From positions 806,001 through 870,000 of the forward strand of contig UGGN01000001.1 of the NCBI GenBank assembly GCA_900450455.1: a DNA stretch of 64,000 nt. The letters are read 5' to 3'. The stretch comes from [Eubacterium] infirmum (GTDB lineage Bacteria; Bacillota; Clostridia; Peptostreptococcales; Anaerovoracaceae). The position numbers and the translations under genes are program-made. The notes beneath the pieces were generated by a model. That model searched no databases, was not told where the DNA came from, and worked only from the letters and a program-made list of their open reading frames with translations. Of this stretch, positions 46,012 through 57,701 are shown one piece after another; positions within the stretch are counted from its first letter, which is position 1; each line of letters begins with the position of its first letter.

Positions 46012-47046
46012 TGTGATAAGACATATGTTACAGAAATAAATAAAAAAAGAGAGGAACTTTGGTACAATAGGTTTTACCACAAACTTTCAAGTACTAAAGG
46101 AGTCCTCTCATGAAAAGTATAACCGAAGAAATGCGTTTCCGCCAGCGTTTATGTGAATATGCGATTAAATATGGTGTAACACGTGCTGCAATGCGATATC
46201 ATACTAATAGACAGTTTGTCTATCGCCAATTAGAAAAATATAACGGAGATGTCAGAAGCCTAGCACTTAAATCAAGAAGACCCCATAATAGTCCTAACGC
46301 TCACACAAAAGAAGAACTTGCATTAATATGCAGAATGCTTAAACGTAATGGAGTATATGGGTTGGCGGAGGTTTTTGTCAGATGTAAAGAGAAAGGCTAT
46401 ACAAGAAGCTTTGCAAGTATGTGCCGTCAAATACGAAAAAAGGGTTATAGAAAGCCAATAATACATAAAAAGAGTTATTGTAAGTATGAGCACATGGAAG
46501 GTAAATATCCGGGTGATAAGGTTCAAATAGATATAAAGTATGTGCCGGCTGAATGTATACGATTTCCAAGCTACGGAAATAGATACTATCAAATTACAGG
46601 AATAGATGAATACAGCAGAAAACGAGTACTAAAAATAGTAAAAGAGAAGAGCACATATGAAACATGTAAGTATTTACAGGAATTAGAAAAGAGAATGGGC
46701 TTTCCAATTCGTATGATTCAAGTTGATAATGGCAGTGAATTTGTAAATGATGGTGATCGTACAGAACGAGAAAGTGCATTTGAGAAGGCTGCAAAAGAAT
46801 TGAACATGGAATTAAAGAGGATAAGACCATATTCACCTTGGCAAAACGGTAAAGTCGAAAGAAGCCATAGGGAGGATGGAAAGATTCTCTATGGAAGAAA
46901 AGCTTTTACAAGCGAAAAAGATCTAAGAAAACAAGTGTCAAAGCATGAGGCTAGATATAATAAGACAGCAAAGACAGTTCTTGATTTCAAGAGCCCAAAC
47001 CAAGTTGTATCGGAATACTTCTCAAAGTGTAACATATGTGTTGACA
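46012..47046 (+). mobile_element. IS481-like insertion sequence
   Basis: A roughly 1-kb element with one DDE transposase. Inverted sequences ACATATGTTACA (46021-46032) and TGTAACATATGT (47028-47039) lie near both ends, and TGT.../...ACA could be the termini (46012 and 47046), though the outermost bases match imperfectly. Instead of a short target duplication, 26-bp direct repeats flank it at 5 and 7 bp distance. The exact ends are therefore uncertain by a few bases. Confidence 0.65.
46049..46109 (+). promoter_or_regulatory. Hairpin hiding the IS481-like transposase start, with internal promoter
   Basis: GAGAGGA (46049-46055) and the following bases can pair with the stretch ending TCCTCTC (46103-46109) directly before the ATG, covering the AAAGGAG ribosome-binding site. 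A TACAAT box (46063-46068) inside the element would start transcripts after the 5' arm, leaving the site free. Read-through transcripts would be blocked. Confidence 0.55.
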
Positions 47047-47051
47047 ACTAA
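46110..47051 (+). CDS. IS481-like transposase
   Basis: A 313-residue transposase. An N-terminal helix-turn-helix (YAIKYGVTRAAMRYHTNRQF) is followed by the retroviral-integrase type core: GDKVQIDIKYVP (first Asp, about residue 139), IRMIQVDNGSEFVND (second Asp, about 211) and YSPWQNGKVERSHRED (third acidic Glu, about 250). C-terminal FKSPNQVVSEYF resembles the end of integrase-core transposases. The reading frame is intact. AAAGGAG precedes the ATG inside the hairpin described above. Confidence 0.88.
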   Translation: MKSITEEMRFRQRLCEYAIKYGVTRAAMRYHTNRQFVYRQLEKYNGDVRSLALKSRRPHNSPNAHTKEELALICRMLKRNGVYGLAEVFVRCKEKGYTRSFASMCRQIRKKGYRKPIIHKKSYCKYEHMEGKYPGDKVQIDIKYVPAECIRFPSYGNRYYQITGIDEYSRKRVLKIVKEKSTYETCKYLQELEKRMGFPIRMIQVDNGSEFVNDGDRTERESAFEKAAKELNMELKRIRPYSPWQNGKVERSHREDGKILYGRKAFTSEKDLRKQVSKHEARYNKTAKTVLDFKSPNQVVSEYFSKCNICVDN

Positions 47052-47298: not shown

Positions 47299-50200
47299 AT
47301 GAAGAATTTTAAGAGGAATATCAGCTTAATTCTAACTGTAATAATGCTGTTGTTTAACTTCGGTTCAGCTTTCTCTTTTGCCGAGAGCAGGCAGAGTGTA
47401 GACAAGAGCGAACAGTCAGTGAATGAAAGTACTGTAGAAGAATCCGAACAAAAGGAAAATCTTACTTCAGATTCACCTGACGAAACAGGTTTTCGAAAAG
47501 GTGTTGACAAACCGATGTCTTCGGATGATGGTGCCGTCATAGAGAGCAGGAATGAAATGAAAAATGGCGCTTCAAACTTGAAAAGTCAGGCGTTTGACGA
47601 AGATGATTTTCACATCTCCGGTGTCAATTTCAACGGATTGACAGAGTCCGGGAAGGCGAAGCTCAAAGCCAAAAACGGAGTACTTGTTTTTCCTGTTCTT
47701 AAGACACAACACGGATCGTATGTAAGCCGAATCGGCAGTAACGGCTTTAAAGGTTTAGGCATTAAGTCCGTAAGTTTTCCTTCAGTAGTGACGGAAATAG
47801 ATCCTCAAGCTTTCTATGATAACGAAATCAGCGAGCTCAGACTTCCGGATACGATACAAAATATAGGATATGGAGCTTTTAGTAAAAATAAGATAAAGAA
47901 ACTCGTATTGTCTAAAGGGATGAAAACAATATGGGGATTTACATTTGCAAACAACTATCTAAATGAGCTTGTTGTTCCTGCCAATATTACTAAGATAAGC
48001 TATAACGCATTTGAAAACAACAAGTCGGACAACCCTAACGGAAAGCTGAAGCTTGTTGCTGAGAATCCTGAAAGCCTTGCAATAGATCCGAAAGACAAGG
48101 ACAAATATGATATAGTAGCGCAGAATTCAGAGTCTGAAAAATACAAGGAAGAGGATTTTGATTATGAAATCGTATGGGATCACGATCTTCAGAAAAATGT
48201 TTGCAAGGTGACCGGATTAAATGATTCCGGTAAGGAGAAACTAAAGAAAAACCTTAATCTGATTATTCCCGATGTTATAAAAGGGAATAAGGTTGAGGTT
48301 ATAGGCAAAAATGCATTTCTGGAACGAAATATGTCATCAATTTCAAAGCTCGTATCAATAAAGCTTCCTAGGAACCTTCTCAAGATCGAGGATAGCGCCT
48401 TTGCAGGCAATGCATTTGAAACCCTTACACTTCCGACGACATTGCAGATTATTGGACCGAACGCATTCTGCTATAACAATATAGCAGAGCTTTTTGTTCC
48501 GAATTCGGTAAAAACAATTTCGCTAAATGCGTTTGGAGGAAACCCGCTGACAAGTGTTGAGATTGATAACTACAAGGAGAATGTCAGCGTTGACTTCCAG
48601 GCATTCGGAAACAATACTAAACTCAAGTATCTCAGAGTAAAAGAGGAATATGAAATCAAAATCAAAGCGGATGAGGGGGTTACTGTAGCTACAGACCCGT
48701 CCGGGAAGGCTTCTGCCGGCGATAAGGTAAAAATCACATATTCCATTACGGATAACAACAAAGAGCTTCTTGATATCAAGGTGAAGAGTGGCGAATACAG
48801 CACGGTTACATTGAAAGACGGCAGTTTTGTTATGCCGAAAAAAGCGGTAACTATAGAGCTCAGATTAAAGGATAAATATTCACTTGATAAATGGTGCGCT
48901 GAAGATTTTGAATACGGATATTATGAGCTTGGAACGCCGGACGATGATTACTATCTTTACGAATATTCAGTTAAAGGATTTTCGGAAAAAGGAAAAACAA
49001 AGCTGAAAACACTTAAGTCTATAGTTCTTCCATCTCGTGATGATAAAGGAAACATTCCTGTTTGGGTATACGAAGACGCGTTTAAGGGAATTAAGATGGA
49101 CAGCGTTGAGATTCCGGGAAACTACACACATATCCAAAATAATTCGTTTAAAAACTGCGACCTAAAAAAACTTGTGTTACACGAGGGCGTACTCTATGCA
49201 AATGATTCTGCATTTGAGGATAACAATTTAAGTGAGTTGTCATTACCTAACAGCTTCAAATATCCGTCAAAAGCAGCGTTTAAGGGAAACAATCTCAAGC
49301 ATGTAAAACTACCGGAGCTTTGTGAATCAATCGGTCCTGAAAGCTTTATGAATAATCAGCTTGAAAGTGTGGAAATGGGCTCAAAGGTAAAACATATTTA
49401 TTCAAAAGCCTTTGCCGGAAACAGGCTTACAGAGGTAAACATACCTAAAAGCCTCAAAAACAAAGAGGGCGGTATTGACGGTATTAAAGCGGATGCCTTT
49501 GATAACAACCCGGGGAAAAAGAATCCTCTTAAACCTGATGAAAATAAAGTAATTTTGTGGACTCCGAATAAGGATAATCCAAATAAGCTGATTGACAGGG
49601 GTAATTATATAGTTGATCCTAAGCTCCATGAGCAGGATGAAGAAAAATGGCAAGCGGACGATTTTATATACAAGACACTAAAGCTCAATAAGATTGAGAA
49701 TGGTGAAAAGATTGCTGTCGATTTGAATAGTGTTTCCGGTTTTTCCGATAAGGGAAGAGAGAAACTCAAGACTAACAAAAAATTGGTACTGCCAACTGTA
49801 GACACCGGCGGACAAAAGGTTGAGGCAGTTGAAGACAGAGCTTTTTCGGGGTCACCTGGTACTAAGCGTCTTGACACACTGAAAATACCGGAAGGTTATG
49901 TATATATTGGAAGCACTGCATTTGCATTTAACGGATGCGGAGGAGAACTGATTCTTCCGGACAGCATGGAATATGTAGGACCTGCGGCTTTCTTCAGAAA
50001 CGAGTTTACCGCTCTTGTTGTTCCTGAAGGAATGGACGAGATTTCATCTGCAATGATGAGGGGAAATAGACTCAGCAAGCTTACGTTCAAGGGCAATAAT
50101 CTTGTATCAATAGACAGGCTGGCATTTGCTGAAAACAGGCTTGAGGAAATCACAGTTCCGGATTCTTTAAAGTCGATAGGGGCTCAGGCATTTACGACAA

Positions 50201-52374
50201 ATACCGGTTCCGACAATTACAAGGGTAAGCTCATTATCCATACCGCATCGGGGAAGAATCCTAATAAGCTTAAGGATGCGGAAAACTATTTGATAGACCC
50301 TAAGGATCCGGGAGTAAATCCGGGCATTGATTATAAGAAGTGGACTGTAGATGACTTTGAATATGACGATACAACAGTAAAAGGCTTTTCTGAACAGGGT
50401 CAGCTTAAAATCAAAAAGAACAAGAATCTGGTAATACCTGATAAAACGCCTGATGGAAAATCAGTTTTGACAATAGGCATAGATGCATTTAGGAATCTCA
50501 ATAAAGGCTATGACATAGAGAGTATCAAATTGCCTGAAACTGTCACGGTAATTGAAGATTATGCTTTCCAGTTCAACAACATTGACAAGTTTAAGATGCC
50601 TCGTGATTTGAAAAAATTAGGTATGGGCGTTTTCATGATGTCAAATGTAACGAAGATAGAATGGAACGATAAAATCGAATATATTGATCAAGCATGCTTC
50701 TTCATGTGCGAATTCGGCAAATTGGAAATACCTGCTTCGGTAAACACCATAATGAATGCATCTTTCAGACGCTGCAACCTTACAGAGGTAAAGTTTGCTA
50801 AAGGCAGCAAGCTGAAAAATATCGAGAGCCTGGCGTTTGCCGACAACAAGCTAAAGGGAATTACTCTTCCTGACGGTTTGGAATCTATAGGCAGTCAAGC
50901 CTTCGGTGACAATCAGTTCAAGGAACTTGATGTACCTGCTTCGCTTAAAAATATAGGATTTCAGGCTTTTGTAAACAATCCGAGCAAGGAGAATCCTGAA
51001 CCCGTAGTCGTTCACACTCCTGAAGCTAAGAATCCTGGCGGACTTACAGATGATCAAGGAAGGACCTTCGTTATAGATCCGAAGAAAAAGGCTGATGCCG
51101 CTGATAAGGCAGAACTTAAGAAGTCTATAGATGCGGCGGGAAAAATAGATAGTAATAAACTTACAGCAAAATTCAAAGAATTGTTCGATGAGACATTGCT
51201 TGAGGGCAAGAACATATATGCTGGCAAGGATGCATCACAGGCAAGCGTAAGGGGCAGCATCAAGTCAATCCGCTGGGTTGTAAGGAGATCGGAATTAAGC
51301 GAATTGATGTTCAAGAAAGAAGAACTGGAACCGCAAAAGGATAAGTATGATGCTGATAAGTGGGTAAATGTAGAAAACGCATATAAGGAGGCAAAGGAAA
51401 ATCTTTTCTATATTAATATTTCGGACGAAAAGGTAGCACATCTTATAAATACCTTATCCGTTGCACTTAAGGCTCTTGACGAGAATACCGACGAGCTCAA
51501 GGGTGCTAAAGCGTATGAAGGAGAGTTCCTGGTTAAAAAGACTCATTATATCGAGCCTTATACTATCAAGGTAAAAGTATGGGTCAAAGATGGAAAGATT
51601 GTTCACGTTATCAATAACGGAACGGTTACAGACGATCCTAACGATCATGAGGAACATAACGGTGGCTATTTCAAACAAGCTGTCGAGAACCTCTCCAAAT
51701 ATAAGGGCAAGAAGGTGTCTGATGTCAAGAACAGCAGCAGTAATGATCTGGGCATCGATGCAATATCAGGAGCAACTATAAGCAGTGTCGGAATACACGA
51801 GGCTATTAAAAACGCGCTCAGCAAGGTTCAGGAAGAAGAACCCGTTCCACAGCCACAGATACATATCGCTGTAGATGATCCATCAATCAATATCAATAAC
51901 GGAGTTGTTGTCAAAGGCAATCAAATAATATATACAAAGGGCAAGTCTAAAGGAGCCGAATTCAGGATAATCGGTTTGAACTTTGATAATGATAAAGACA
52001 GCATCAAAGTTATGGTGGATGGACAAGCAGTAGATAAGGCAAACGCATATACGCTGCGCTCAGGGAGTATAATAATAAGCTTTAAAAAAGCTTACCTTGA
52101 TTCCCTTAAGACAGGAGAGCACGAAATTGCAATTTCTACAGGAAAAGGAAATCTGAATGCAAGGATTATCATCAGAGAAGATGAGGTGAGCGCTAACAAA
52201 CCATATGAAAATATTGAATCTAAGAACGGCGCAATACAGATTAAGCACGTAAAGTCCGTAAATTCACCGGTTAATACCGGAGATTCGCAGAATATTATTG
52301 AATTTACACTTATAATGATTATTGTGAGTGCTGCATTAGCAGCTCTGATTATAAGAGTCGGAAGACATGAGTAA
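47299..52374 (+). CDS. Giant BspA-like leucine-rich-repeat surface protein with FMN-binding domain
   Basis: A 1691-residue secreted protein. The signal peptide spans about 1-30. Five modules each start with a '(E/D)DF.Y' linker and 'V.GFS..GK.KLK...LVLP' (about residues 101, 284, 533, 784, 1015), followed by LRR_5 repeats of the BspA type ('I...AF..N.L..V.LP..L..IG..AF'). An InlB-like beta domain lies about 450-530. Residues about 1403-1500 are an FMN_bind domain: THYIEPYTIKVKVWVKDGKI and IDAISGATISSVG, where the Thr of SGAT is the usual site of covalent FMN attachment by ApbE. An Ig-like domain (about 1510-1640) and a C-terminal helix with RVGRHE follow; SPVNTGD before it is only a weak sortase-like signal. 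It probably binds host or matrix proteins and may carry electrons at the cell surface. Confidence 0.85.
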   Translation: MKNFKRNISLILTVIMLLFNFGSAFSFAESRQSVDKSEQSVNESTVEESEQKENLTSDSPDETGFRKGVDKPMSSDDGAVIESRNEMKNGASNLKSQAFDEDDFHISGVNFNGLTESGKAKLKAKNGVLVFPVLKTQHGSYVSRIGSNGFKGLGIKSVSFPSVVTEIDPQAFYDNEISELRLPDTIQNIGYGAFSKNKIKKLVLSKGMKTIWGFTFANNYLNELVVPANITKISYNAFENNKSDNPNGKLKLVAENPESLAIDPKDKDKYDIVAQNSESEKYKEEDFDYEIVWDHDLQKNVCKVTGLNDSGKEKLKKNLNLIIPDVIKGNKVEVIGKNAFLERNMSSISKLVSIKLPRNLLKIEDSAFAGNAFETLTLPTTLQIIGPNAFCYNNIAELFVPNSVKTISLNAFGGNPLTSVEIDNYKENVSVDFQAFGNNTKLKYLRVKEEYEIKIKADEGVTVATDPSGKASAGDKVKITYSITDNNKELLDIKVKSGEYSTVTLKDGSFVMPKKAVTIELRLKDKYSLDKWCAEDFEYGYYELGTPDDDYYLYEYSVKGFSEKGKTKLKTLKSIVLPSRDDKGNIPVWVYEDAFKGIKMDSVEIPGNYTHIQNNSFKNCDLKKLVLHEGVLYANDSAFEDNNLSELSLPNSFKYPSKAAFKGNNLKHVKLPELCESIGPESFMNNQLESVEMGSKVKHIYSKAFAGNRLTEVNIPKSLKNKEGGIDGIKADAFDNNPGKKNPLKPDENKVILWTPNKDNPNKLIDRGNYIVDPKLHEQDEEKWQADDFIYKTLKLNKIENGEKIAVDLNSVSGFSDKGREKLKTNKKLVLPTVDTGGQKVEAVEDRAFSGSPGTKRLDTLKIPEGYVYIGSTAFAFNGCGGELILPDSMEYVGPAAFFRNEFTALVVPEGMDEISSAMMRGNRLSKLTFKGNNLVSIDRLAFAENRLEEITVPDSLKSIGAQAFTTNTGSDNYKGKLIIHTASGKNPNKLKDAENYLIDPKDPGVNPGIDYKKWTVDDFEYDDTTVKGFSEQGQLKIKKNKNLVIPDKTPDGKSVLTIGIDAFRNLNKGYDIESIKLPETVTVIEDYAFQFNNIDKFKMPRDLKKLGMGVFMMSNVTKIEWNDKIEYIDQACFFMCEFGKLEIPASVNTIMNASFRRCNLTEVKFAKGSKLKNIESLAFADNKLKGITLPDGLESIGSQAFGDNQFKELDVPASLKNIGFQAFVNNPSKENPEPVVVHTPEAKNPGGLTDDQGRTFVIDPKKKADAADKAELKKSIDAAGKIDSNKLTAKFKELFDETLLEGKNIYAGKDASQASVRGSIKSIRWVVRRSELSELMFKKEELEPQKDKYDADKWVNVENAYKEAKENLFYINISDEKVAHLINTLSVALKALDENTDELKGAKAYEGEFLVKKTHYIEPYTIKVKVWVKDGKIVHVINNGTVTDDPNDHEEHNGGYFKQAVENLSKYKGKKVSDVKNSSSNDLGIDAISGATISSVGIHEAIKNALSKVQEEEPVPQPQIHIAVDDPSININNGVVVKGNQIIYTKGKSKGAEFRIIGLNFDNDKDSIKVMVDGQAVDKANAYTLRSGSIIISFKKAYLDSLKTGEHEIAISTGKGNLNARIIIREDEVSANKPYENIESKNGAIQIKHVKSVNSPVNTGDSQNIIEFTLIMIIVSAALAALIIRVGRHE

Positions 52375-53748: not shown

Positions 53749-54141
53749 CTACTTTCTCTTGCTTTCCTTTGGTGTTACGCAAGTTCCTGTAGCTCTGGCT
53801 ACAACGATTGGCTCCTCAAGGAAGTCTGCTGCTGAAGCACTTACGTCTGTTCTGGCTACGATTACCTTACGAGCTTCAAATGACATCTTTCTTGATGTGT
53901 TTCCGATCTTTGTGATTTCACCAACTGCTTCAATATAGTCACCTGCATATGTTGGAGCAAGGAATTCAACGTTATCATAAGCACAGAAAAGACCTTCGTC
54001 TCCGTCGCACTTGATAAGAAGCTCTGTAGCAACGTCTCCGAATAGGTGTACCATGTGAGCTCCGTCTACAAGGTTTCCGCCGTAGTGAGCGTCTTTAGCT
54101 GACATTCTAACTCTAATCATTGAAGTGATTTTCTCTTCCAT
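53749..54141 (-). CDS. kal: 3-aminobutyryl-CoA ammonia lyase
   Basis: A 130-residue hot-dog fold protein that removes ammonia from (S)-3-aminobutyryl-CoA to give crotonyl-CoA in lysine fermentation. It starts [20 protein letters not shown], with [20 protein letters not shown] (about residues 22-41) and [20 protein letters not shown] (about 58-77), the typical sequence of Kal. ATG at 54141 (minus strand) follows AAAAGGAGAA; an upstream in-frame ATG gives an implausible 28-residue extension. Unlike the other pathway genes it is transcribed in the opposite direction, divergently from the regulator gene. Confidence 0.9.
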
Positions 54142-54193: not shown

Positions 54194-54222
54194 ATTATAG
54201 CTTTAGGTGGCGGGGCTGTCCA
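54194..54222 (-). promoter_or_regulatory. Promoter of kal
   Basis: On the minus strand TGGACA (54217-54222) and a perfect TATAAT (54194-54199) are separated by exactly 17 bp. Confidence 0.75.
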
Positions 54223-54233
54223 CATAAAAACGG

Positions 54234-54262
54234 TTGCAAAAAGGCACTTAATGCGTTAATAT
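54234..54262 (+). promoter_or_regulatory. Promoter of the Kdd-like regulator gene
   Basis: TTGCAA (54234-54239) and TAATAT (54257-54262) are 17 bp apart. The predicted start near 54270 lies just before the GAACC/GGTTC dyad. Confidence 0.5.
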
Positions 54263-54278: not shown

Positions 54279-54294
54279 GAACCGAAAAAGGTTC
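54279..54294. promoter_or_regulatory. Inverted repeat GAACC-N6-GGTTC, probable operator
   Basis: GAACC (54279-54283) and GGTTC (54290-54294) form a dyad about 10-25 bases downstream of the predicted transcription start of the regulator gene. The same half-sites in the opposite arrangement occur upstream of kdd at 56452-56477, so both are candidate binding sites for the regulator encoded here. The position suggests autorepression. Confidence 0.5.
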
Positions 54295-54315: not shown

Positions 54316-56382
54316 ATGAATAATAATTATGGCATCAATAGGGTTCTGGAGCCAAAGCATGTGCTTCCGACTTCGGCTTGGCAACTTGACAACAACCACA
54401 ATATATTTCCTGACGAGATTCGCATAGATATCAGGAGGATTCATATAGAGGGAACTAGTTTCAAGGAGATTTGCCTCGAGGCAAACGACAATGACCAAAA
54501 GATTAAGCAGAAGATAATGGACATAGTCATAAGAAGGGGTAAGCTTCACAATCCGGTAACCGATACAGGCGGAATGCTCTACGGCGTGGTCAGCGAGATA
54601 GGTTCTGAACACGAGAACCTCAAGGGGTTTAAGGTCGGTGACGAGGTTATATGCAACGCATCTCTGACATCACTTCCTCTATATATAGATAAGATCACTT
54701 CTATAGATAAGTCCTTTGGACAGATAGAGGCAGAGGGCTACTGCATTTTGCCGAAAGACGTTCCTGTAATAAGAAGGCCGCAGGGGCTACCGCTAAAGCT
54801 TTTGATGTTCACATTCAATGAATCGGGCACCATCTACAGGATAAGTAGCACGGCCGTAGGTAAGAGGAAGTTCCTTGTTGTCGGAAACAACCTTCTATCA
54901 AATCTTCTTTTTGGATTTGCGATACGCAAGGTGGCAAGAGAAGATGCCGAGGTTATCTGTTTACTCGACCACAAGACAGACATGGTGCTCAAGGGAGAGG
55001 GAATCAATCAGCTGATAAAGAGGGTTTTCACCGAGGTCCGCTACGTGGATATCCTAAAGCCGCTTGAATGCATAGCTGATATAGACGGCGATTCTGCTTT
55101 TGATCTTTCGGTCAACTGTGCAGATATTCAGGGTGCAGAGACAATCAACATCCTCGCAACAAAGAGCGGAGGAACAGTAATCTTCGCAAATCTGATAAAC
55201 AACTACAACATCGCCCTATATATAACTGAAGCGATTTCCAGACAGCTAGACATTAGGTGTGCCGATGGTTACCTCGAGGCCTACGACAAGTTCGACATCG
55301 AGATTGTTAAAGACCTTGCTCCGTACATAGAAAACGCGGAGGAGACGACCATAAGACTCAAGGACGATTCTTCATATGGCGGAACCAAGAGTAGGTTTGT
55401 AAATGCCAGCGGTGTGAACCAGACTATAATGGAGGACTTTGTATTTACGAGCCATGCGATGTCGGTTGTCATCGATGAGGTTTTGACAGTTGCAAAGTAC
55501 GACTGTAATGTTTTGATTACCGGAGAAACCGGTGTCGGCAAGGAGAAGGTCGCTAATCTGATTCACAAGAACAGCAATAGAAAGATGCAGCCGTTCATCA
55601 AAGTGAACTGTGCTTCAATTGCACCGTCAATGCTTGAAGCTGAATTCTTTGGAGTAGAGAAGGACAAATCAAAAGGTCTTGAGACGAGCAAAAAGGGATT
55701 CTTTGAGTTTGCGGATAACGGCTCGATTTTTCTCGATGAAATCGCTGATTTACCGCCTGATATGCAGGCTAAACTTCTGAGGGTGATACAGGATGGGGAG
55801 TTCTTCAGAGTCGGAGGTCAGGAAGCTATTAAGTTCAATGTGAGAATTATTTCGGCAAGCAACAGAGAACTTGAGGATTTGATAGATGCAGGTGGATTTA
55901 GAAGAGACTTATATTACAGACTGAATGTTGTCAGGATAAGGGTTCCCGCTTTGAGGGACAGGCCTTCGGATATTCCTGTTTTGGTTGAACACTTCCTCGA
56001 TGCCTATGGAAAGACTTTTTCCATCAAAAGGGCGATAAACACAGATGCTCTAGATTACCTCGGACAATGTGAGTGGCCGGGCAATACCAGAGAGCTTGAG
56101 AACATCGTTCAAAGGCTGATGATTGCGGCTAGGAGCGAAGAAATAACTCTGCTTGATGTCATGAGGGAGCTTCATGCGGATGTCTTTGATATGAATGTGA
56201 TGAACTCGGGTGATGAGAGCATTGCCATGGAAGAGGTCAACATGCAGGTAATGGTTGAAAACTTTGAGAAAAATATAATCAAGCACGCCATAGAGAAATA
56301 CGGTTCAACTCGTAAGGCTGCTAAGGCGATAGGCATAAGTCAGACTCAGCTCGTTCGCAAGAAAAACAAATACAACATATAA
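54316..56382 (+). CDS. AAA+ enhancer-binding-type regulator with a Kdd-like sensor domain
   Basis: A 688-residue three-part protein. Residues 1-345 are homologous to Kdd of the same pathway (YGINRVLEPKHVLPTS against YGTHRVISPKGVLPQP; GGMLYGVVSEIGSEHENLKG against GGMLIGTVEEIGPEWKG), but the dinucleotide-binding glycines (VIGGGGKSG in Kdd) are VVGNNLLSN here. Residues about 375-605 are the AAA+ domain of sigma-54 activators: Walker A LITGETGVGKEKVANLIH (about 397), Walker B GSIFLDEIADLPP (about 471), arginine finger FRRDLYYRLN. The GAFTGA loop that contacts sigma-54 is replaced by DKSKGL after FFGVEK. A Fis-type helix-turn-helix ends the protein (STRKAAKAIGISQTQLVRKK). It probably senses a lysine-pathway intermediate and controls kal, kdd and the kam genes. 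Confidence 0.9.
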   Translation: MNNNYGINRVLEPKHVLPTSAWQLDNNHNIFPDEIRIDIRRIHIEGTSFKEICLEANDNDQKIKQKIMDIVIRRGKLHNPVTDTGGMLYGVVSEIGSEHENLKGFKVGDEVICNASLTSLPLYIDKITSIDKSFGQIEAEGYCILPKDVPVIRRPQGLPLKLLMFTFNESGTIYRISSTAVGKRKFLVVGNNLLSNLLFGFAIRKVAREDAEVICLLDHKTDMVLKGEGINQLIKRVFTEVRYVDILKPLECIADIDGDSAFDLSVNCADIQGAETINILATKSGGTVIFANLINNYNIALYITEAISRQLDIRCADGYLEAYDKFDIEIVKDLAPYIENAEETTIRLKDDSSYGGTKSRFVNASGVNQTIMEDFVFTSHAMSVVIDEVLTVAKYDCNVLITGETGVGKEKVANLIHKNSNRKMQPFIKVNCASIAPSMLEAEFFGVEKDKSKGLETSKKGFFEFADNGSIFLDEIADLPPDMQAKLLRVIQDGEFFRVGGQEAIKFNVRIISASNRELEDLIDAGGFRRDLYYRLNVVRIRVPALRDRPSDIPVLVEHFLDAYGKTFSIKRAINTDALDYLGQCEWPGNTRELENIVQRLMIAARSEEITLLDVMRELHADVFDMNVMNSGDESIAMEEVNMQVMVENFEKNIIKHAIEKYGSTRKAAKAIGISQTQLVRKKNKYNI

Positions 56383-56451
56383 CTACATGCAGAATAATTA
56401 AACTTGCTAATCAAGAGAATAACGAGCGTTAATTAAAACTGATTATAGAAT

Positions 56452-56477
56452 GGTTCACATGATGTTTTATGCGAACC
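56452..56477. promoter_or_regulatory. GGTTC-N16-GAACC dyad upstream of kdd, probable activator site
   Basis: GGTTC (56452-56456) and GAACC (56473-56477) with CAT/ATG inside form an interrupted dyad centred about 105 bp before the predicted kdd transcription start. Both half-sites recur at the regulator's own promoter, where the shared word is GAACCGAAA. Confidence 0.5.
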
Positions 56478-56557
56478 GAAATCTATTCGCTTGTTATTTT
56501 TTTGTTAAATTCTTGTATACACGCAATCAAGCATATAGAAAAAAGTATAGACTGTTT

Positions 56558-56563
56558 TATAAT
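56558..56563 (+). promoter_or_regulatory. -10 box of the kdd-kam operon
   Basis: A perfect TATAAT; no good -35 lies 16-18 bp upstream, as expected for an activated promoter. No -24/-12 sigma-54 pattern (TGGCAC-N5-TTGC) is present between 56380 and 56640. Confidence 0.5.
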
Positions 56564-56639: not shown

Positions 56640-57701
56640 ATGAAAAAGGGTAATCCATACGGTACTCACAGAGTAATTTCACCAAAGGGTGTTCTACCAC
56701 AGCCGGCTGACGTTATAGATAACGATATGGAAATCTATGACAACGAGGTTAAGATCAATGTTCAGACACTAAACATCGACTCAGCTTCGTTCACATCAGT
56801 TTGTGACCACGCTTGCGGAAAGAAGCCCGGAGATGATTTAACTGCTGATGATATCGAGAAGATAAAGGAGACAATGCTTGGTATTGTTGCTAAGGCAGGT
56901 AAGCACAAGAACCCATGGACAGGTTCAGGCGGAATGCTAATCGGAACGGTTGAAGAAATCGGACCTGAGTGGAAGGGTGATCTAAAGGTTGGAGATAAGA
57001 TTGCTACACTGGTTTCACTTTCACTTACACCACTTGTAATCGACGAGATCGTAGCTATGAGACCGGCTATCGACCAGGTTGACATCAAGGGACATGCTAT
57101 CCTATTCCAGAGTGGTATCTATGCTAAGCTACCTGAGGATATGCCTGAAGGACTTGCACTTTCAGCTCTTGACGTTGCAGGTGCTCCTGCGCAGGCTGCT
57201 AAGCTTGTTAAACCGGGAATGAAGGTTCTGGTTATCGGCGGCGGCGGAAAGTCAGGTCTAATGTGCCTATACGAGGCAAAGAAGAGAGCCGGCGTTACAG
57301 GTCAGGTTATCTGTGCTGCAGGTTCACAGAGATCAGAGGACAGAGCTCGTGAGCTTGATCTTGCTGACGCATACTTCCACCACGATGCTACAGATGCAGT
57401 AGGAATGTACGAGAAGGTTATGGAGCTCACAAATGGAGAGCTTTGTGACGTTGTTATCAACTGTGTAAACATCGAAAACACAGAGATGGCTTCAATTCTT
57501 TGCACAAAGGACAAGGGTCTGGTTTACTTCTTCTCAATGGCTACAAGCTTCACAAAGGCTGCTCTTGGTGCTGAGGGTGTTGGCAAGGACGTTGACATGA
57601 TTATTGGTAACGGTTATACAGCAGGACATGCTGAAATCACACTTCAGGTTCTAAGAGAGCACGAAGGACTAAGAAAGCTCTTCAACGAGATGTACGCTTA
57701 A
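56640..57701 (+). CDS. kdd: L-erythro-3,5-diaminohexanoate dehydrogenase
   Basis: A 353-residue NAD-dependent enzyme of lysine fermentation that oxidises 3,5-diaminohexanoate to 5-amino-3-oxohexanoate with release of ammonia. It starts KKGNPYGTHRVISPKGVLPQ; the dinucleotide-binding motif KVLVIGGGGKSGLMCLYEAK lies near residue 197, and ALDVAGAPAQAAKLVKPGMK precedes it. The leader contains a dyad and promoter, AGGAGG precedes the ATG, and the codon choice is more uniform than in the glycan genes, suggesting high expression. It begins the kdd-kamA-kamB-kamC-kamD-kamE operon. The N-terminal part of the regulator upstream is a degenerate relative. Confidence 0.93.
   Translation: MKKGNPYGTHRVISPKGVLPQPADVIDNDMEIYDNEVKINVQTLNIDSASFTSVCDHACGKKPGDDLTADDIEKIKETMLGIVAKAGKHKNPWTGSGGMLIGTVEEIGPEWKGDLKVGDKIATLVSLSLTPLVIDEIVAMRPAIDQVDIKGHAILFQSGIYAKLPEDMPEGLALSALDVAGAPAQAAKLVKPGMKVLVIGGGGKSGLMCLYEAKKRAGVTGQVICAAGSQRSEDRARELDLADAYFHHDATDAVGMYEKVMELTNGELCDVVINCVNIENTEMASILCTKDKGLVYFFSMATSFTKAALGAEGVGKDVDMIIGNGYTAGHAEITLQVLREHEGLRKLFNEMYA

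Follow-up and report, generated by a model that had tools for sequence, protein, structure and literature searches.

How does an enhancer-binding protein work when it has lost its GAFTGA loop and carries, as its sensor, what appears to be a copy of an enzyme of the pathway beside which it is encoded? The question is raised by a regulator gene in the window, by which we mean the whole 64,000-nucleotide stretch of [Eubacterium] infirmum DNA that was analysed. The gene is divergent from kal and is followed by kdd, which heads a downstream cluster continued by kamA, kamB, kamC, kamD and kamE (Table 1). Our answer, to which we give a probability of roughly 0.75, is that a sigma-54 activator has been rebuilt about six times as a fixed-spacing sigma-70 activator of kdd and kal, with promoter use and ligand being inferred. 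The domain make-up, both motif losses, operator conservation, promoter exchange and fixed spacing were computed. Elsewhere in the window, a large, apparently secreted leucine-rich-repeat (BspA-like) protein is encoded at 47299-52374, with a C-terminal region resembling an FMN-binding domain, both named by eye, and an IS481-like transposase gene (46110-47051, under the family cut-off) adjoins it.

Table 1. Features of the regulator locus (positions are those of the window)
Feature	Position	Strand	Evidence or remark
kal, 3-aminobutyryl-CoA ammonia lyase, divergent from the regulator	53749..54141	-	NF052388, 192 bits vs cut-off 160
Predicted sigma-70-type kal promoter TGGACA-N17-TATAAT	54194..54222	-	
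Predicted sigma-70-type regulator promoter TTGCAA-N17-TAATAT	54234..54262	+	
Perfect operator GAACCGAAAAAGGTTC, +18 of regulator promoter, -99 of kal promoter	54279..54294	.	No binding data
Regulator gene, 688 aa	54316..56382	+	Kdd-like sensor, bEBP AAA+ domain and TyrR-type HTH
Kdd-like sensor domain, residues 2-333	54319..55314	+	BLASTP, phmmer, Foldseek
Destroyed NAD glycine motif VVGNNLLSN, residues 188-196	54877..54903	+	Alignment
E305, aligned with Kdd E310	55228..55230	+	E in 95/95 fusions
AAA+ domain and lid, residues 377-621	55444..56178	+	Pfam; Foldseek to NtrC1 AAA+
DKSKGL in place of GAFTGA, residues 450-455	55663..55680	+	Alignment
TyrR-type helix-turn-helix (HTH_50)	56251..56379	+	Pfam
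Distal kdd operator GATTATAGAATGGTTC, right half perfect, about -121	56441..56456	.	No binding data
Proximal kdd operator GAACCGAAATCTATTC, left half perfect, about -89	56473..56488	.	No binding data
Predicted sigma-70-type kdd promoter TAGAAA-N16-TATAAT	56536..56563	+	
kdd, L-erythro-3,5-diaminohexanoate dehydrogenase	56640..57701	+	NF052381, 244 bits

The regulator gene is a single open reading frame with the limits first given for it, and the enzyme origin that had been claimed for its sensor is supported by both sequence and predicted fold. The N-terminal domain aligns with the neighbouring Kdd, encoded 257 bp downstream, at 27% identity (BLASTP, E 9e-43), and residues 4-332 align with the solved Kdd of Candidatus Cloacamonas (7dl3; phmmer, E 1e-25), with which the fold is shared; the NCBIfam Kdd model NF052381 matches residues 6-167 with 138 bits, under its cut-off of 200. 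An N-terminal fold unrelated to Kdd had been named beforehand as a refutation. In an AlphaFold model built from 56 sequences (mean pLDDT 80), the domain proved to be Kdd-related, with a TM-score by target of 0.79 to 7dl0_B (Foldseek, E 2.4e-22). The preliminary description further proposed an AAA+ domain followed by a Fis helix-turn-helix. The former is secure (Sigma54_activat PF00158, E 3.8e-60, with AAA_lid_14 also matched; TM by target 0.93 to NtrC1 AAA+ structures in Foldseek), and the latter is better described as TyrR-type, as HTH_50 outscores Fis HTH_8.

The NAD glycine motif, which reads GGGGKSG in the neighbouring Kdd and GANGKSG in 7dl3, is GNNLLSN in the regulator; as had been claimed, it is destroyed, the first glycine remaining and the others gone. 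The loss of this motif and the fusion to AAA+ and HTH domains set the regulator apart from Kdd, and its Kdd-like half is presumably a non-functional enzyme copy, the missing dehydrogenase activity being inferred from the missing motif. In contrast to the lost NAD motif, Kdd E310, one of the two positions substituted in the engineered enzyme E310G/A314Y (7dl0), is conserved as E305 of the regulator, and the aligned residue is E in every fusion examined. Because E305 is kept and the NAD motif is lost, the ligand of the sensor is probably 3,5-diaminohexanoate or a compound much like it, an inference from homology and a single residue. The NAD motif is absent from all main-group fusions, most of which have a GNNLLSN-like sequence instead, and near-intact versions occur together with GAFTGA or GSFTGA in distant fusions (GANGKIG in L041, GANGKVG in L141, GASSKIG in L142). 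The loss of the NAD motif is the earlier event and that of GAFTGA the later one. L141 and L142, which belong to two other families, may sense NAD(H) or remain enzymes.

In the AAA+ domain, GAFTGA is replaced by DKSKGL, as first described; the accompanying statement that the loop had kept its length does not quite hold, since 11 residues separate FFGYEK from GYFE in the window protein and 12 in GAFTGA-containing relatives. Walker A, Walker B and the arginine finger were correctly called intact, and so are sensor I, the second arginine finger (equivalent to PspF R168; PMC7175178) and sensor II. Loop sequences vary between loop-less clades from substitutions through to deletions, and among sister species they are unrelated or deleted. 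Each of the 23 loop-less proteins retains Walker A and the first arginine finger, and 22/23 retain sensor II. All 72 GAFTGA-containing proteins have an intact Walker B, sensor I and second arginine finger, whereas only three of the 23 loop-less ones, including the window protein and its sister, have all three. This erosion pattern would fit a relaxed need for ATP hydrolysis with ATP binding and assembly retained. By analogy with Caulobacter NtrC (PMC10274813), hydrolysis may still matter in the window protein, whose ATPase residues are intact.

The architecture, which was to be sought in other genomes, was found in at least 95 fusions, mostly from Anaerovoracaceae, so that a single oddity or annotation error is ruled out; sampling of the 95 examined is biased toward close relatives. 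GAFTGA or GSFTGA is kept in 72/95 and lost in 23/95, and the losses are spread over about six separate clades: L103/L113; L082; L072-L076; Aminicella, Hornefia and Eubacterium minutum; L081; and the window's genus. Six changes are needed both on a tree of the N-domain alone and on one of the whole protein without the loop (bootstrap range 5-6), and the GAFTGA-containing orthologues likely represent the ancestral state. The phylogenetic tests are nevertheless thin, with few independent pairs: six on the best tree and only four on well-supported branches (sign test p 0.125 for the four). One GAFTGA-containing fusion (L027, genome G030) is split into two frames by an in-frame stop in a genome that keeps kdd. 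In a related family, two Kdd-bEBP fusions, both with GAFTGA-type loops, stand in tandem (L039 2242-6420, and L040), and the same genomes carry a third, distant fusion elsewhere (L042, L043).

The two classes share an operator. GAACC-N6-GGTTC is a clearly enriched palindrome in both, often in tandem at 31-33 bp; the spacing of 6 occurs in 45/55 GAFTGA-containing and 16/18 loop-less loci against about 0.2 expected, and other spacings are ruled out, none having comparable enrichment. What differs is the distance from the proximal operator to the predicted +1, which ranges from -61 to -218 (SD 34.8 bp, n=51) with GAFTGA and only from -87 to -91 (SD 1.0 bp, n=18) without it (Levene p 6e-6), although the sigma-70-type promoter of the loop-less loci was picked independently of operator position. 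In a genome-wide search of the window genome, only two exact operators were found, and the reversed pattern, run as a control, occurred equally often, so that we propose no wider regulon. The only other exact operator (L135 1501-1516, genome C2:333551) is located where a gene for a LysE/ArgO-like exporter of basic amino acids begins; chance alone would give about one such site in this genome. In the intergenic regions of L062, L068 and L063, a T-run follows the operator palindrome, which may double as a terminator of the regulator gene.

The promoters were exchanged along with the loop. A single scoring rule was applied in all species to the region from the regulator to kdd (or kce), a sigma-54 site being TGGCA[CT]-N5-TTGC; all promoters discussed here are consensus predictions, without expression, footprint or binding data. 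A near-perfect -24/-12 site precedes kdd or kce in 53/55 testable GAFTGA-containing loci and in none of 18 loop-less loci, the two exceptions among the former being near-misses (TGGAATGATTCTTGCT and TGGCATATTTATTTCT). The divergent kal promoter has such a site in 38/45 and 0/19, respectively. Shuffles, which on the kdd/kce side gave 0.0002 hits per region, rule out chance matches there and on the kal side. In the window, there is no -24/-12 site in the regulator-kdd intergenic region and none upstream of kal. The mean sigma-70 score at the -90 spot is 10.4 in loop-less and 5.1 in GAFTGA-containing loci, which rules out a sigma-70 promoter at kdd inherited from GAFTGA-containing relatives, and the promoter-proximal z is 2.9 versus 0.25. 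The preliminary description had inferred that the regulator acts at sigma-70-type promoters. That inference is now strongly supported by the predicted promoters: the sigma-54 site vanishes exactly where GAFTGA does, and a sigma-70-type promoter stands in its stead.

Traces of the exchange remain in Emergencia. Several kal loci there carry both promoter kinds, a -24/-12 site and then TTTACA-N17-TATA-type boxes, and are a possible dual-promoter intermediate. L081, which lies inside the GAFTGA-containing Emergencia group, has a decayed -24 element beside a kept TTTGCA, with TATAAT directly after; judged by its sequence, it is a fossil of in-place promoter conversion. Three loop-less loci (L077, L080, L124) are exceptions in appearance only, as kdd has moved there and kal is the first gene, with the operator upstream of it; in two of them, the distance is -90 to the promoter with the highest score, which is a weak one.

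The switch cannot be put down to a loss of RpoN, which 32/34 genomes checked keep; it is missing only from G001 (78% complete) and from G067, the genome of L082. The window genome has rpoN (PF04552, 212 bits). Its ord gene (2,4-diaminopentanoate dehydrogenase, ornithine fermentation; L131 and L035, near 74-77 kb of genome C2) carries an intact sigma-54 site and adjoins its own bEBP gene. Sigma-54 is thus apparently still used in this genome, and it is lysine fermentation that has left it.

For the window itself, the evidence is less direct. Its kdd start was set by TATAAT (56558-56563), and the promoter has a poor -35 and a score that does not stand out from those of shuffled sequence (z 0.4). 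Of the 10 operator positions, 2 are mismatched in one kdd site and 3 in the other (3 in each in the sister genome); both sites are weaker than the kdd sites of relatives, so that the strong site of the window is the kal/regulator operator. What speaks for the window is position and relatives, not its own kdd promoter score.

We propose that the regulator is a transcription factor through which lysine fermentation responds to a ligand. Its ancestors would have been ordinary sigma-54 enhancer-binding proteins that activated kdd or kce, and kal, from the tandem operators, and GAFTGA would have been lost together with the -24/-12 promoters of the targets in the window's genus and about five other lineages. 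From the unchanged operator, placed some 90 bp before +1 at kdd and 99 bp before it at kal, the loop-less regulator would activate sigma-70-type promoters as a class-I-style recruiter, and it would repress its own gene from the operator at +18. The ligand, the direct recruitment of sigma-70 polymerase and the sign of regulation are inferred. We hold it reasonably probable that some six independent conversions led from distance-tolerant, ATP-driven sigma-54 activation to rigid sigma-70 recruitment, with the operator and ligand sensor kept, the promoter rebuilt and all ending at -90.

It is conceivable, though unlikely, that the main role of the loop-less regulator is to repress sigma-70 promoters until a lysine intermediate relieves the repression. 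The operator is palindromic and lies at about +18 of the regulator's own predicted promoter in most loop-less loci, and bEBPs without GAFTGA can repress, as in Caulobacter NtrC (PMC10274813). At kdd, however, the operators, centred on no promoter element but placed at about -89 and -121, leave the promoter itself clear in 18/18 loop-less loci; the -35 boxes are mostly off-consensus, like those of activated promoters; and the GAFTGA-containing orthologues with -24/-12 promoters, from which the operator has been kept, should be activators. The preliminary description had left open whether the protein activates or represses, and operator geometry indicates both, with sites at about -89 of kdd and -99 of kal and at +18 of its own promoter. 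A different objection concerns the number of conversions, as a single loop loss could have spread by transfer of a regulator-promoter module, or GAFTGA could have been regained in some lineages. Some deep branches are indeed weakly supported, and supported branches alone force only two changes (N-domain tree) or four (whole protein without the loop). We still consider this improbable: changes were counted on the regulator's own tree, where module transfer would have grouped the loop-less proteins, and they are not grouped; their loops differ between clades; and L081, with its fossil sigma-54 site, is nested among GAFTGA-containing proteins.

That the loop-less regulator is no more than a relic in decay, with the lysine genes now constitutive, seems very improbable, even though relatives show erosion of the loop, Walker B and arginine finger and the window kdd operators are weak. 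Nearly all loop-less species have full-length frames with Walker A and the HTH kept, the operator lies upstream of the regulator in 23/23 loop-less loci, and the kdd operator spacing has an SD of 1 bp across about six lineages. Scarcely credible, too, is continued sigma-54 dependence in which a changed loop acts at a non-canonical promoter. The window genome has RpoN, the window protein keeps all ATPase residues, and some GAFTGA variants are tolerated (PMC6615313); but neither kdd nor kal has a -24/-12 site upstream, the loops of sister species are unrelated to one another or missing, and the ATPase residues are eroded in most loop-less relatives.

The activator reading has partial precedents. 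With its loop lost and its ATP-binding site kept, the window regulator resembles bEBPs without GAFTGA that act at sigma-70 promoters, its own sigma-70-type promoters being predictions at a fixed operator spacing. TyrR acts at such promoters. NtrC of Rhodobacter capsulatus and Caulobacter and VspR of Vibrio, also without GAFTGA, have been reported there as well (PMC10274813). All of these share with the window regulator an AAA+ domain without GAFTGA, and its HTH_50 is the TyrR-type HTH; it scores 250.9 bits against the TyrR model NF008085, under the cut-off of 576. Its sensor is a dead dehydrogenase, whereas TyrR/NtrC-type bEBPs have ACT/PAS or receiver domains, and no ACT or PAS match was found in it with Pfam. 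Unlike in the TyrR, NtrC and VspR cases, it has GAFTGA-containing orthologues with intact sigma-54 promoters in sister genera, and in the Kdd-bEBP family loop loss recurs within one family, with promoters replaced at fixed spacing. KamR of Bacillus thuringiensis, a PAS bEBP controlling the lysine 2,3-aminomutase gene from a -12/-24 promoter (PMC4428206), differs from it in sensor and promoter and has no Kdd fusion. Among Clostridiales, 39 groups of sigma-54 enhancer-binding proteins have been described (Nie et al. 2019, PMC6615313). Our regulator shares with them a one-component design, a place beside a fermentative amino-acid operon and palindromic upstream sites; the GAFTGA-containing Kdd-bEBP orthologues fit the description fully, whereas the window regulator lacks GAFTGA and its targets lack -24/-12 sites. 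The main text of that survey lists no dehydrogenase-type N-domain and mentions neither lysine nor kdd. In open-access text, we found neither the Kdd fusion nor a family with repeated loop loss described.

Isolated regulators without GAFTGA are already known, and a change of polymerase class has been hard to study for lack of replicates and intermediates. The Kdd-bEBP family offers about six apparent conversions with close unconverted sisters, together with a fossil intermediate (L081), the double kal promoters of Emergencia and a measurable end state (-87 to -91). A dead pathway dehydrogenase would add a sensor type to those of enhancer-binding proteins, and we propose the protein as a regulator of lysine-to-butyrate fermentation in anaerobes of the gut and mouth.
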